Source of the DNA: Pseudomonas putida
GTDB lineage: Bacteria > Pseudomonadota > Gammaproteobacteria > Pseudomonadales > Pseudomonadaceae
Assembly: GCF_026625125.1 (NCBI RefSeq)
Contig: NZ_CP113097.1
Coordinates: forward strand, 5,442,001-5,506,000
Direction: 5' to 3'
Length of the DNA: 64,000 nucleotides
In this document: piece by piece, positions 28,096 through 51,088 of the stretch
Layout of the letters: each line of letters begins with the position of its first letter
How positions within the stretch are numbered: the stretch's first letter is position 1
The notes under the pieces: generated by a model
The model's input: only the letters and a program-made list of their open reading frames with translations
Databases searched by the model: none
Told to the model about the DNA's origin: nothing
Position numbers and translations under genes: made by a program

Positions 28096-28551
28096 AAACG
28101 CAAGCACATACATGCTCAGCAGCTGGCCTGGACAGACTGCCTTCGTCAACCACATGGCTTTGCCTCCTGTACCCAGAGGGCAGCATGTTTGCTTGGCGAG
28201 ATCCTACTATGCGTTAACTAGGCCGAGCATAAGAAACCCAGCCCGAGTTTCGACTGGGTTTCAGTTTTTTCCGCTTACGTGTAGGACGTTTCTGAATTAC
28301 AGTCCCAAGCCGCTTGAGCCATTGCGATGATCTGGGCTCGGCACTAGTCTCGGGCGGTCGCTGCGAAATCAGCGACCGGCTTTGACAGGCCGCCTTGGTA
28401 TGAATCACATGGCTCGCTCTTATGGCAGCTGTGCATGGGGCACTTCGTGTGCGCCGGGTTTTGGTTCACCTACCGGTCTGTCAACCCATGTACAGCTGCC
28501 ACCAATTGTTTGACAGCAGATGGTGATGGCCCTCATTCAAGGTGTTCCATC
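28096..28551. other. intergenic stretch after RHS gene 2
   Basis: No convincing gene. It contains the terminator at 28233-28270 and a perfect 8-bp hairpin GGTCGCTG-6 nt-CAGCGACC at 28356-28377. Small open frames here have no recognisable features. Confidence 0.5.
28233..28270 (+). terminator. Rho-independent terminator downstream of RHS gene 2
   Basis: GAAACCCAG (28233-28241) pairs perfectly with CTGGGTTTC (28254-28262), followed by AG and six T. It lies about 140 bp after the RHS gene 2 stop. Confidence 0.85.
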
Positions 28552-47150: not shown

Positions 47151-47340
47151 AGCCCCGTGCTACAAGGGCTGGCGCGTCGTAATTCAAATCGGCCATGTCG
47201 CCCATGGATACGGTTCGCGGCGTCTTCGGACGCACACTCCACGGCAAAAGAACCTGCTGTTTTTTCACAGATGCTCTTGCGGCACCACAACAACGATTAG
47301 CCACCTTTTGCCGGCCGCCTACGGCCCCGAGGATTACACG

Positions 47341-48633
47341 ATGGACGTCACCGCAACCCTGAGCCTGGGCGATCCACTGGAAGCTGCACGCAAGGCCACC
47401 GCCGAGATGCTGCAGACCCGCGAGCGCACCTACTCGCTGCCCCAGCCGTTCTACACCGACGAGCGTCTGTTCCAGATCGACATGCAGGAGATCTTCCACA
47501 AGGAATGGCTGATTGCCGGCATGACGTGCGAAATCCCGGCCAAGGGCAACTACATCACCCTGCAGATCGGCAAGAACCCGATCATCGTGGTGCGCGGCAG
47601 CGAAGGTAAGGTGCATGCCTTCCACAACGTCTGCCGCCATCGTGGCTCACGCCTGTGCGTCAACGAGAAAGGCAAAGTGGCAAAGCTGGTCTGCCATTAC
47701 CACCAGTGGACGTATGAACTGGATGGCCGCCTGCTGTTCGCAGGTACTGAAATGGGCGCCGACTTCGACATGAAAGAGTACGGCCTCAAGCCTGTGAACG
47801 TAAAAGTCGCCGGTGGCTACATCTTCATCAGCCTGGCGGAAAACCCACCTGCGATCGACGAGTTCCTGGCCACCCTGGACCACTACATGGAACCGTATGA
47901 CATGGAGAACACCAAGGTGGCAGTGCAAACCACCTTGATGGAAAAGGCCAACTGGAAGCTGGTGCTGGAAAACAACCGCGAGTGCTACCACTGCTCCGGC
48001 TCGCACCCGGAGTTGCTGCAAACCCTGCTGGAGTGGGACGACACCAACGACCCGCGCGCCAGCCAGGAATTCAAGGACCACGTGGCGGCCTCCGCCGCCG
48101 CTTGGGAAGCCGAGAAGATCCCGTACCTGCACAAGAGCCATGGCCTGCGTAACCGCATCGTGCGCATGCCGCTGCTCAAGGGCACCGTGTCGATGACCAT
48201 GGACGGTAAACAGGCGTGCCAGAAACTGATGGGCCGCATCAAGAACCCAGACCTGGGCTCGATGCGCATCCTGCACCTGCCACACTCGTGGAACCACTGC
48301 ATGGGCGACCACATGATCGTGTTCACCGTGTGGCCGATCAGCGCCCAGGAGACCATGGTCACCACCAAGTGGCTGGTGCACAAGGATGCCGTGGAAGGCG
48401 TGGACTACGACCCTGAGCGCATGCGCAAGGTGTGGGACGCCACCAACGACCAGGACCGCCGCCTGGCCGAAGAAAACCAGCGCGGTATCAACTCGACGGC
48501 GTATCAGCCGGGGCCTTACTCGAAGACTTACGAGTTCGGTGTGGTGAACTTCATTGACTGGTACAGCGACCGCGTATTGGCCAATTTGGGCGCAGAGCCT
48601 GCCCCCTACCTGAAAGAGGTGAAGGCGCAGTGA
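47341..48633 (+). CDS. gbcA: glycine betaine monooxygenase oxygenase subunit GbcA
   Basis: A 430-aa Rieske non-haem iron oxygenase that demethylates glycine betaine to dimethylglycine plus formaldehyde. The Rieske cluster ligands are in NVCRHRGSRLC and VCHYHQWTYELDG. The mononuclear iron site is in VLENNRECYHCSGSHPELL. The start MDVTATLSLGDPLEAARKAT was chosen by family length and an upstream GAGGA; the frame is open 33 bp further upstream. Confidence 0.97.
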   Translation: MDVTATLSLGDPLEAARKATAEMLQTRERTYSLPQPFYTDERLFQIDMQEIFHKEWLIAGMTCEIPAKGNYITLQIGKNPIIVVRGSEGKVHAFHNVCRHRGSRLCVNEKGKVAKLVCHYHQWTYELDGRLLFAGTEMGADFDMKEYGLKPVNVKVAGGYIFISLAENPPAIDEFLATLDHYMEPYDMENTKVAVQTTLMEKANWKLVLENNRECYHCSGSHPELLQTLLEWDDTNDPRASQEFKDHVAASAAAWEAEKIPYLHKSHGLRNRIVRMPLLKGTVSMTMDGKQACQKLMGRIKNPDLGSMRILHLPHSWNHCMGDHMIVFTVWPISAQETMVTTKWLVHKDAVEGVDYDPERMRKVWDATNDQDRRLAEENQRGINSTAYQPGPYSKTYEFGVVNFIDWYSDRVLANLGAEPAPYLKEVKAQ

Positions 48634-48714: not shown

Positions 48715-49572
48715 CTACACGGTGACGCTGTGCGGGGTTGGGCGCATTGACCTTATGCTTTCCGCTGCTGCTGAAATCCTTTCCGCTGCTGCTGAAAGCC
48801 CCCGGCCCACGGTAGCGAACATTTCGTCCACCATCGTCACATCCATGAAAGTCTCCAGAGCGACACTGGGAATTTCAAATGGGTTTACTCTCAAGTAACT
48901 CACCACCTCACGGGCTGCAGCAAAGTTACCTGTCAAACCGCCGCTCAGGTTGGTGACTGAATTCACCACGCTAAACACATCTGTCGCTGTCTGGAAGGCA
49001 GGCGTTACCCCACTGATCGCAGCCGTCAACTGCCCAGCGACCCCAGCGCTCCCAGTCAGGAAAAACTGCTGATTCGAGATTCTGGATAGCTGAGGCAGCT
49101 CCTGATGGCCTACGGAGCGCCCGGGCTCGCTAGCTTGCGCAGCGTTATGCCTGGCCCGGAAAGCCACCCTGCGCCCCACTACATTCCTGGCCGTACGCGC
49201 CAACGAGCCCAACAACGTAGCACCGCTGGACGCCACGCCAATGGCTCTGAACACGACGCCCCAGAACGCCCCGCTTGGGTCATGGCGATTCACGGGATCG
49301 CCGCCACAATAGGCGTATGCATGGATACCTCCCTTGCCGAACGGGCTTAGCGGGTCAGCGCTGATAAACCGCCTCAGGCTCGGACTGTAGAAGCGGCGAC
49401 CATTGCCCAGGGCATAACAGCCTGTGAGCGGATCCGGGCGCTGACCACAGAAACCCAGCCCTGGTATCAGTGCGGTACCTGAGGCGCCATAAGGCGAATA
49501 AGCGAGCGCCTCGTGCCCCCCCCTACCCAATACAGAGCGCTGGCGGTCGACGCTTAGCAGTAATGTCTTCAT
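48715..49572 (-). CDS. orphan RHS core protein with hydrophobic C-terminal tip
   Basis: A 285-aa protein starting MKTLLLSVDRQRSVLGRGG, the second common N-terminal type of P. putida orphan RHS proteins; the frame is open upstream without similarity. RHS core: GLGFCGQRPDPLTGCYALGNGRRF, YSPSLRRFISADPLSPFGKG, GGIHAYAYCGGDPVNRHDPSG (about 42-110). The tip starts with a hydrophobic segment (FWGVVFRAIGVASSGATLLGSLA) and contains a second one (FLTGSAGVAGQLTAAISG), so it may be membrane-active. Tip function is unknown and no immunity gene is evident. Confidence 0.83.
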   Translation of the reverse strand: MKTLLLSVDRQRSVLGRGGHEALAYSPYGASGTALIPGLGFCGQRPDPLTGCYALGNGRRFYSPSLRRFISADPLSPFGKGGIHAYAYCGGDPVNRHDPSGAFWGVVFRAIGVASSGATLLGSLARTARNVVGRRVAFRARHNAAQASEPGRSVGHQELPQLSRISNQQFFLTGSAGVAGQLTAAISGVTPAFQTATDVFSVVNSVTNLSGGLTGNFAAAREVVSYLRVNPFEIPSVALETFMDVTMVDEMFATVGRGLSAAAERISAAAESIRSMRPTPHSVTV

Positions 49573-49629
49573 GGTTATCCACAATTCACAGAACGTGTGG
49601 TCAGGATAATGAGGGACGTTGTATTTGCG

Positions 49630-49647
49630 TACTGGCAAAAATGACAG
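49630..49647 (-). promoter_or_regulatory. shared RHS leader element (copy upstream of RHS gene 3)
   Basis: On the minus strand it reads CTGTCATTTTTGCCAGTA, identical to 27264-27281. 57 nt separate it from the RHS gene 3 ATG. A TTATCCACA box (49575-49583) lies between it and the start codon. Confidence 0.6.
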
Positions 49648-49656
49648 GCCGGCAAC

Positions 49657-50095
49657 TGGTCACTATTCAACCAATCCTATCAAGGCCCCACGCTTTCTGG
49701 GCTACAGCGATCTTCATACACCTTGTCCACAGAGACACCAACAGAGTTTGTGAGCAAAAAGCGGCATGCAGCTTCGTTTCTGTGGATAAGCGATTCAAGG
49801 CCCTGATAATCATGGATCAGGAGACACACGCCGCCATTTGATCATTTTGTAATCAATTCCTCACAAGCCACGGCCTCCGCGGCTTCCAAGTAGTACCGGA
49901 CAGCTTATCCACAGATCCGCCAACAGCGATTGTGGGCAAAACCACCCGGAGATAGGCTATCAGCGTCTGATTAACCCGGCTAAGACCTGATCAATTTATG
50001 ATCAAAGTTCTGTAAGCCCCTATATGTATAGCCTCCAGCCATGCACCAACACTTTATCCACACCTTGGCGAACAGATTCCGTGAGCAAAAAAAGA
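49657..50095 (+). repeat. three direct repeats each carrying a DnaA-box-like 9-mer at fixed geometry
   Basis: Copies start at 49657, 49839 and 49988. Each begins TGRTCA, has an (A)ATCA/ACCA block 13-17 bp in, AAGGCC/AAGCC at about position 27, and then, exactly 66 bp from its start, TTGTCCACA, TTATCCACA and TTATCCACA respectively. Exactly 31 bp after the box start comes GCAAAA, preceded by AACAG and TGTGRG/CGTGAG. An extra inverted TGTGGATAA lies at 49781. The copies are diverged between these anchors. They fill the AT-rich 745-bp gap between RHS gene 3 and etfB, in which I see no gene. Confidence 0.85.
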
Positions 50096-50317: not shown

Positions 50318-51088
50318 TCAGCGCAGCACGCCCTCTTCCACCAGCAGCTTGAGGATGGCCTCGGCGCCTTCCTGTGGCGAAACATCCTTCAGCACCTTGC
50401 CGCCACCGCCACTGGCCTTGGCGGTCGCCGCCTTCATCCGGTCGGCGCCGCTTTTGGCCTTGATCACCTTAAGCCGCTTGGGCCGTGGCCGTGCCGGCTG
50501 CAACTCGGCCTCGGCCAGCAGATCATCCTCGACGATCGCCACATTGCGCGCCGCCAGCACACCCCGGCGCGCCGGCCCGAATGCGCTCTGGCGCGGCTTG
50601 GGCGCGGCGTTATCCACAGTCGCCAGCAACGGCAGGCGCACTTTCAGCCGGCGCCGCTGACCACGCGGCAGCGCCTGCAATACCTGGGCGGTGCCGTTTT
50701 CAATCGACTCCACCTCGGCCAGCCCCACGATCAATGGCCAGCCAAGCTTTTCGGCCAACAGGAAGGGCAACATGCCCGAGCCCTCACCCGTCTCGGCCTG
50801 GCTGCCGGTCAGCACCAGCTGTGCCCCGGCGTCGCGCAGGTAATCGCCCAGCACGCCCAGCACATCGGCTCCGGCGGGCTGCTCCAGCACATCCAGGTGA
50901 TCCAGGCCCATGCCCAGGTAGGCGCGCAATGCTTCCTCCTGTGGGTCGCCAGCATGCACCACCTGCAAGTTATCCCCAGCCAGCTGCAAACCCAGTTCCA
51001 CCGCGCGCGCATCCTGCTCAGCGCGCCGGGCCCGGCCGGAGCTAGGGTGGGCCCCGATGGAAACCAGGCTGATCACTTTCGTACTCAT
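50318..51088 (-). CDS. etfB: electron transfer flavoprotein beta subunit (dimethylglycine/sarcosine pathway-specific)
   Basis: A 256-aa EtfB-family protein starting MSTKVISLVSIGAHPSSGRARR. AMP/ADP-binding and dimerisation features are VVHAGDPQEEALRAYLGMGLDH and LVLTGSQAETGEGSGMLPFLLAEKLGWPL. The C-terminus is extended and basic (RPRPKRLKVIKAKSGADRMK). It is the last gene of dgcA-dgcB-etfA-etfB, 10 bp after etfA, matching PA5401. It likely carries electrons from DgcA/DgcB to the quinone pool rather than serving fatty-acid oxidation. Confidence 0.9.
   Translation of the reverse strand: MSTKVISLVSIGAHPSSGRARRAEQDARAVELGLQLAGDNLQVVHAGDPQEEALRAYLGMGLDHLDVLEQPAGADVLGVLGDYLRDAGAQLVLTGSQAETGEGSGMLPFLLAEKLGWPLIVGLAEVESIENGTAQVLQALPRGQRRRLKVRLPLLATVDNAAPKPRQSAFGPARRGVLAARNVAIVEDDLLAEAELQPARPRPKRLKVIKAKSGADRMKAATAKASGGGGKVLKDVSPQEGAEAILKLLVEEGVLR

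Follow-up and report, generated by a model that had tools for sequence, protein, structure and literature searches.

A tandem, origin-proximal array of putative DARS-type DnaA-control units in Pseudomonas putida

The window analysed here is a stretch of 64,000 nucleotides of the Pseudomonas putida genome that corresponds to positions 5,442,001-5,506,000 of the 5.86-Mb chromosome. A repeat array at 49575-50088 (+) occupies the gap between two convergent genes, gbcA (+) and etfB (-), both named according to NCBIfam. It comprises three full units and a remnant of another one, arranged head to tail (Table 1). A gene for an Rhs-core protein is located in the same gap and has its start 3 bp from the box of the remnant. 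In this genome, the first unit is cut off at the start of the Rhs-core gene. The initial annotation had placed the locus far from dnaA and oriC. This proved wrong: dnaA is only 370 kb away (6.3% of the genome), so that the array is not far from the origin. The window is rich in DnaA boxes, with 21 occurrences of TTATCCACA at no more than one mismatch vs 5.1 expected, and none of 100 shuffles reaches 21. At 28344-28506, the window also contains a C4 antisense RNA and its a1/b1 target (RF01695, RF03163), a phage-type immunity RNA.

Table 1. Features of the array and its flanking genes (positions are those of the window)
Feature	Position	Strand	Score or remark
gbcA, glycine betaine monooxygenase oxygenase subunit, conserved neighbour	47308..48633	+	NF058607, 814 bits (cut-off 670)
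Rhs-core protein gene, begins beside the remnant unit	48715..49572	-	TIGR03696
Whole array	49575..50088	+	3 full units and 1 remnant, head to tail
Strong DnaA box of remnant, upstream-truncated first unit	49575..49583	+	box 9/9; box II position 3/9
Unit 1, Fis-type site GGTCACTATTCAACC	49658..49672	+	1 mismatch
Unit 1, inverted-repeat flank	49678..49708	+	
Unit 1, DnaA box III TTGTCCACA	49723..49731	+	8/9
Unit 1, weak direct box II ACACCAACA	49735..49743	+	5/9
Unit 1, inverted weak box I (TGTGAGCAA on +)	49749..49757	-	7/9
Additional perfect DnaA box, inverted	49781..49789	-	
Unit 2, Fis-type site GATCATTTTGTAATC	49840..49854	+	1 mismatch to the W-core form, 0 to the published form
Unit 2, inverted-repeat flank	49860..49890	+	
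Unit 2, DnaA box III TTATCCACA	49905..49913	+	9/9
Unit 2, weak direct box II CCGCCAACA	49917..49925	+	4/9
Unit 2, inverted weak box I (TGTGGGCAA on +)	49931..49939	-	7/9
Unit 3, Fis-type site GATCAATTTATGATC	49989..50003	+	exact
Unit 3, inverted-repeat flank	50009..50039	+	
Unit 3, DnaA box III TTATCCACA	50054..50062	+	9/9
Unit 3, weak direct box II TGGCGAACA	50066..50074	+	5/9
Unit 3, inverted weak box I (CGTGAGCAA on +)	50080..50088	-	6/9
etfB, electron transfer flavoprotein beta, conserved neighbour	50318..51088	-	NF051844, 422 bits (cut-off 350)

Positions within a unit are numbered from the first base of its strong box (box III). In a full unit, a Fis-consensus site and an inverted-repeat flank are followed by three DnaA boxes in the arrangement 9-N3-9-N5-9(inverted). 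That three copies share a fixed geometry had already been noticed in the initial annotation and was confirmed. TGGTCA, TGATCA and TGATCA are found at 49657, 49839 and 49988, a box begins exactly 66 bp after each of them (49723 with TTGTCCACA, 49905 and 50054 with TTATCCACA), and GCAAAA starts exactly at box+31. Both anchors can now be described more precisely. TGRTCA forms one arm of a 15-bp palindrome in agreement with the Fis consensus, and GCAAAA includes the last bases of a weak box, inverted and located at box+26 to +34 (TGTGAGCAA, TGTGGGCAA, CGTGAGCAA). The two extra boxes at 49575 (+) and 49781 (-) exist as described. The former looks like the remnant of a fourth unit; a Fis-type site is absent from it (5 mismatches).

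For a comparison across genomes, 311 boxes were listed. 270 of them passed a filter that required at least four A/T among the six positions -61 to -56 and AACA, CACA or CCAA within -8 to -3, and 150 non-redundant units with less than 80% identity were retained. Since all of these units had passed the A/T and -8/-3 filter, the following Fis and CNAACA counts are conditional on it: The Fis form GNNYRWWWWWYRNNC is exact in 120 of the 150 units and has at most one mismatch in 147 (a shift of 2 allowed), compared to 0.24 and 3.6 expected after composition-preserving shuffling; CNAACA is present at -8 in 139; and the published Fis consensus GnnYAnnnnnTRnnC (PMC8682772) is matched exactly by 78 and with at most one mismatch by 144 units vs 0.2 and 3.7 in shuffled sequences. 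The Fis-type palindrome begins at -65 or -66. An ANR/FNR-type site was considered for this palindrome and rejected, because the half-site spacing is incompatible. Such sites have the form TTGAT-N4-ATCAA. Downstream, an inverted repeat extends from -43 to -16, with TGCAGGCC...GGCCTGCA as its commonest form. This flank (e.g. 49860-49890) displays sequence symmetry without covariation, as would be expected of a site for a dimeric protein. Box II at +12 is a weak direct box with a mean of 4.76/9 in the 150 units. The inverted weak box I at +26 reaches a mean of 6.89/9; TGTGNNNAA is exact in 82 and has at most one mismatch in 140 of 150 units. The positions of the head-to-head boxes I and II are kept, also in the window (for their scores, see Table 1). 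By contrast to Fis, no consistent IHF site was found in the units, with 1/150 exact at the best offset, and IHF enrichment in the arrays is negligible (5 exact sites in 72 arrays vs 2.0 expected).

A search across Pseudomonas genomes, as proposed in the initial annotation, revealed that the array is widespread in the genus: A 551-bp query matches 77 of 99 sampled genomes, its own included (E <= 1e-3). The neighbouring genes were checked in 75 of the 76 other matching genomes, and a gbcA-, etfB- or etfA-like gene lies in the fetched stretch at 72 of these 75 loci. At least three boxes in a row are present at 72 of 76 loci (the window's own included). In the underlying box table, G007 was read as one box, G065 and G081 yielded two, and G003 is a second-array locus, from which the 203-bp spacing originates. 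Unit-to-unit spacings of at least 120 bp fall into classes of 128, 139, 150, 161, 172, 182, 193 and 203 bp. Shorter spacings (about 55, 66 and 106 bp) are mostly due to an extra box that precedes the last unit. The class centres fit a period of 10.75 bp (R 0.986; 0 of 20,000 random sets are as good), a figure that is only indicative: The genomes are related, so that the spacing classes lack phylogenetic independence, and finer steps were used to scan for the observed period than for that of the random sets. Weighted by occurrence, the fit is R 0.94 at 10.80 bp, and R 0.89 at 10.65 bp when the short spacings are included. With such spacing classes, species differ by whole helix turns. This whole-turn phasing points to a DNA-protein complex. 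A second, two-unit array with the same anatomy was found in the same genome at 5,133,018-5,133,305 (L006), beside genes for a TetR-family and a UPF0029 protein. Box spacings in this second array are 185, 203 and 202 bp in three genomes (L006, L040, L086).

Fixed geometry had been attributed to selection on a nucleoprotein or an RNA structure. The first part of this proposal, in the form of a DnaA nucleoprotein, is well supported; the RNA part did not hold (see below). The options discussed then missed the inverted weak box, the Fis-type site, the helical phasing and the proximity of the origin as well as the relation to DARS. The box order III-N3-II-N5-I(inverted) of the units is the DARS order; the strength of the boxes differs. 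In E. coli DARS1, located at bioD-uvrB, the same order reads TAATACACA-TGG-TTATCCACA-GGAAT-AGTGGATAA (25/27). The DARS2 region in the E. coli rppH-mutH gap exhibits the same core geometry (24/27) plus a second core of 22. Within the 218 kb of MG1655 examined, cores of at least 22 were confined to the DARS1 and DARS2 stretches, and the datA stretch scored 21/27, just below the cut-off of 22. DARS2 has been described about 650 bp from an insertion at ptsP-rppH (PMC5010248), which is consistent with the rppH-mutH gap.

Within 18 kb of E. coli, the sequence-only model R1, built from 82 units, scores highest at DARS1, where it keeps the register of the units (8.8 bits, E 0.02); DARS2 is not found by it. 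When windows are ranked by a profile of the unit flank (-45 to -14), the flank of DARS1 comes first of 35,767, at the offset seen in the units, and is among 10 of 435,512; with a widened profile (-48 to -2), DARS1 falls to rank 151 of 35,647. The DARS2 flank does not match the unit-flank profile. Box III of DARS1 is also preceded by an inverted repeat similar to that of the units, with an identical offset. According to PMC4585315, full DARS1 activity needs a 42-bp flank of the last box, and this would be the same flank as that of the array unit. DARS1 differs from the array in that it is a single copy with a perfect box II, located 32.9% of the genome from oriC. The Fis consensus at -66 is absent from both DARS1 and DARS2 of E. 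coli. DARS2 is reported to depend on Fis (PMC4245941, PMC8682772). It differs from the array by Fis sites at other places, a need for IHF, an unlike flank and a location 20.6% from oriC. As candidate Fis sites, the consensus matches in the units and in the scan described below would agree with DARS2 in kind and not in placement.

E. coli datA is described as an IHF site between DnaA boxes (PMC4585315, PMC10380432). The array resembles datA as a cluster of DnaA boxes near the origin (6.3% of the genome here, 10.1% for E. coli datA). It is unlike datA in that datA is built on its IHF site, whereas the units have no IHF feature; neither the IHF site of the DARS2 type nor that of the datA type was found in the array. 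A plain datA was rejected, since its anatomy is incompatible with the array. A datA-like titration site had been among the initial options. The chromosomal position speaks for it; the anatomy, with 5 vs 2.0 expected IHF sites and a unit geometry of the DARS type, speaks against it.

The units are not restricted to the genus. R1 matches at E <= 0.01, weak ones included, were obtained in 196 of 198 genomes of the family and in 19 of 19 genera, with up to 19 candidates scored per genome. In another genus of the family (L192), nine R1 matches are located within about 1.2 kb, in a genome whose array lies ~49 kb from dnaA. At the order level, 65 of 76 genomes had matches at the same threshold, among them 62 of 73 in other families. 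From the best R1 matches in the order, 36 stretches with 41 other-family matches were picked. A core of at least 22 is present in 40 of the 41 (placed by best score; the next-best geometry has a mean of 22.0 vs 24.5), and 34 carry an exact TTATCCACA at box II, although box II is degraded in R1.

A second scan of GTDB genomes used boxes II and I only and no unit filter, i.e. it was blind to Fis and to box III. It yielded at least 118 loci; the 80 named ones among them belong mostly to Beta- and Gammaproteobacteria, a few to non-proteobacteria. Box III scored at least 7/9 in 76 of the 121 usable sites. A Fis-type match with at most one mismatch was found at -68 to -63 in 45 of these 76 three-box cores, in 30 of them at -66 alone, compared to a mean of 0.74 over all 90 offsets. 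For sites with a poor box III, the corresponding number is 4/45. The match is missing in 31 of the 76 cores, including the Legionella ones shown. The flank profile attains p < 0.05 in 37% of the 76 cores (median p 0.13). Since the Fis-blind scan recovers it in 45/76 cores, the combination of a Fis site with a three-box core seems to be of old origin. According to a review, many proteobacteria have conserved DARS-like sequences (PMC10380432), and canonical sites outside E. coli are, on that account, not new as such. In the titles and abstracts of the open-licence literature searched, neither DARS nor datA is described in Pseudomonas.

The genome of the window also contains two canonical DARS-like sites at 1,453,958 and 1,481,196, about 25% of the genome from dnaA. 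Both have a perfect box II and a box III of 7/9; their Fis-type sites, again at -66, deviate from the consensus by 2 and 0 mismatches, respectively. With the array they share the three-box geometry; they differ from it by the perfect box II, the box III of 7/9 and the location, and by being single copies. One of the two (L315 / L320 and similar) has a near-perfect box II + I palindrome, TTATCCACA-N5-TGTGGATAA. In the genome studied here, this palindromic site adjoins DUF1232 and FKBP genes. The bare box II + I pattern was matched in all 37 single-contig genomes of the family scanned. In 24 single-contig genomes of the genus, the median distance between canonical sites and dnaA is 28.4% of the genome (range 2.7-33.6; 48 positions, hand-picked, with matches not ending in TGTGG omitted and palindromic pairs merged). 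For the array, the median is 8.3% (range 5.9-17.0; 22 genomes, with the arrays of G167, G284 and G020 taken from R1 matches alone); two of the 24 genomes have no array entry. Four genome lengths in this table were rounded. In G029, both classes are displaced, the array to 17.0% and the canonical sites to 2.7-3.0%. This means, the mid-arm position of the E. coli DARS sites is that of the canonical sites (28.4%, n=48) and not that of the array.

In our view, the array is very probably a DARS-type DnaA/Fis control array as far as its structure is concerned: an origin-proximal, tandem and helically phased variant of DARS. The sign of its action is not settled by sequence alone. That the array would be a tandem DARS-type DnaA-control site with a restraining, datA-like role, direction included, is a statement to which we assign even chances. 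The direction is read from chromosomal position and box strength only. A restraining role appears somewhat likelier than reactivation, because box II is degraded, the copies with a strong box II are located mid-arm and the array lies mostly 6-9% from dnaA. Against a datA-like direction stand further units of the window type, which are found as far as 2.16 Mb away from dnaA. Mechanistically, DnaA would nucleate on box III and spread onto the weak boxes II and I. Since the units are in one helical register, stacking of DnaA and Fis along the same DNA face into a single large complex is conceivable, and Fis might gate the DnaA complex at the phased units. The array, duplicated soon after initiation, would then keep DnaA off oriC.

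The strongest competitor is a true DARS near oriC, where ADP-DnaA on the head-to-head boxes drops ADP, ATP-DnaA is regenerated and Fis acts as activator. For E. coli DARS, ADP release is reported to require boxes I and II (PMC10380432) and to be stimulated by box III, and Fis both activates DARS2 and competes there with ATP-DnaA (PMC8682772, PMC4245941, PMC10380432). The three-box DARS geometry fits this explanation, and so does the Fis-type site in the units, given that E. coli DARS2 needs Fis (PMC4245941, PMC8682772). However, box II amounts to only 4-5/9 in the window and is poor in general (mean 4.76/9), so that a working DARS core remains putative. Furthermore, the units have no IHF site, their chromosomal position is unlike that of E. 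coli DARS, and canonical sites exist elsewhere in the genome. On balance, a true DARS is possible, if rather unlikely.

A simpler explanation is titration: The units would merely hold DnaA, its nucleotide state would be unaffected, and the Fis-type sites would serve DNA packing. It draws on the distribution of boxes over the whole genome (G000), where TTATCCACA occurs 126 times vs 16 times for the reversed pattern and 112 of the 126 perfect boxes lie within 1 Mb of dnaA vs 43 expected (26 of the 126 placed by inference from an ordered listing). Similar crowding of DnaA boxes near oriC has been reported for E. coli and Salmonella (PMC12371093). This crowding suits the control array as well. However, neither a constant order of the three boxes nor a set distance of the Fis site nor helical phasing would be needed for simple titration, which makes it improbable.

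A mobile or Rhs-linked repeat, spreading with no part in replication, finds some support in the Rhs-core gene that abuts the array, in an Rhs-like match at 7 of 75 other array loci and in the occurrence of units at several places in the genome: There are eight further R1 matches with E < 1e-6, one of them 2.16 Mb away from dnaA and others at distances of 0.43, 0.64, 0.73 and 0.74 Mb. However, 68 of the 75 loci have no Rhs-like match in the fetched stretch (some only 2-3 kb), the gbcA/etf position is kept in 72/75, and the core geometry extends to other families, so that such a repeat is hardly credible. As Rhs-core genes abut the array in some genomes, the gbcA-etfB gap rather seems to be a repeated landing place for Rhs.

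A tandem structured RNA had been suggested on the basis of small hairpins in each copy. These hairpins show no convincing covariation across species, and the RNA option fails the covariation test as a whole. In alignment A2 (82 rows, hand-chosen from the 150 units, with two window copies added), the proposed helices pair in 69.1% of the cells vs 68.6% after shuffling of columns, and 101 of 500 shuffles were as high (82 units). Their covariation score is slightly raised (46 of 500 shuffles as high), and an apparent covariation of the complementary inner arms was removed by the column-composition control. Watson-Crick pairing of the symmetric flank arms is 0.544 vs 0.523 expected, RNAalifold returned zero pairs on the unit alignment, and Rfam has no match within the array. 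A single unit folds with z -1.63 on the minus strand, which would suit an RNA, and with z -0.11 on the plus strand, which would not; the 10.75-bp phasing is a further argument against RNA. Because helix pairing does not beat the column shuffles, an RNA is very unlikely. The flank symmetry instead lies in the conserved sequence itself, like that of a site bound by a dimer. Finally, a captured or cryptic replication origin, for which the cluster of DnaA boxes in an intergenic gap is the sole argument, is very unlikely: No initiator gene is found among five identified neighbours, the gene context of the array is conserved, an oriC would be expected beside dnaA, from which the array is separated by 370 kb, and an ordinary DnaA-box cluster exists upstream of dnaA.

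DnaA control by DARS and datA has so far been worked out in E. coli and its near relatives. If the DARS-type reading of the array is true, it provides DARS-type coordinates in a tractable genus and links Fis with DARS through a constant spacing across a wide bacterial range. As a tentative proposal, a DARS module with Fis at ~66 bp may be an old trait common to Beta- and Gammaproteobacteria, and Pseudomonas may have split it into reactivating mid-arm sites and a second class of opposite effect, namely tandem arrays near oriC that are helically phased and box-swapped and serve as a substitute for datA, with the sign set by the strong box and the place. The timing of initiation in such bacteria would become testable, and the comparison of mid-arm sites with a strong box II and near-origin arrays with a weak box II would offer a way to separate reactivation from titration.
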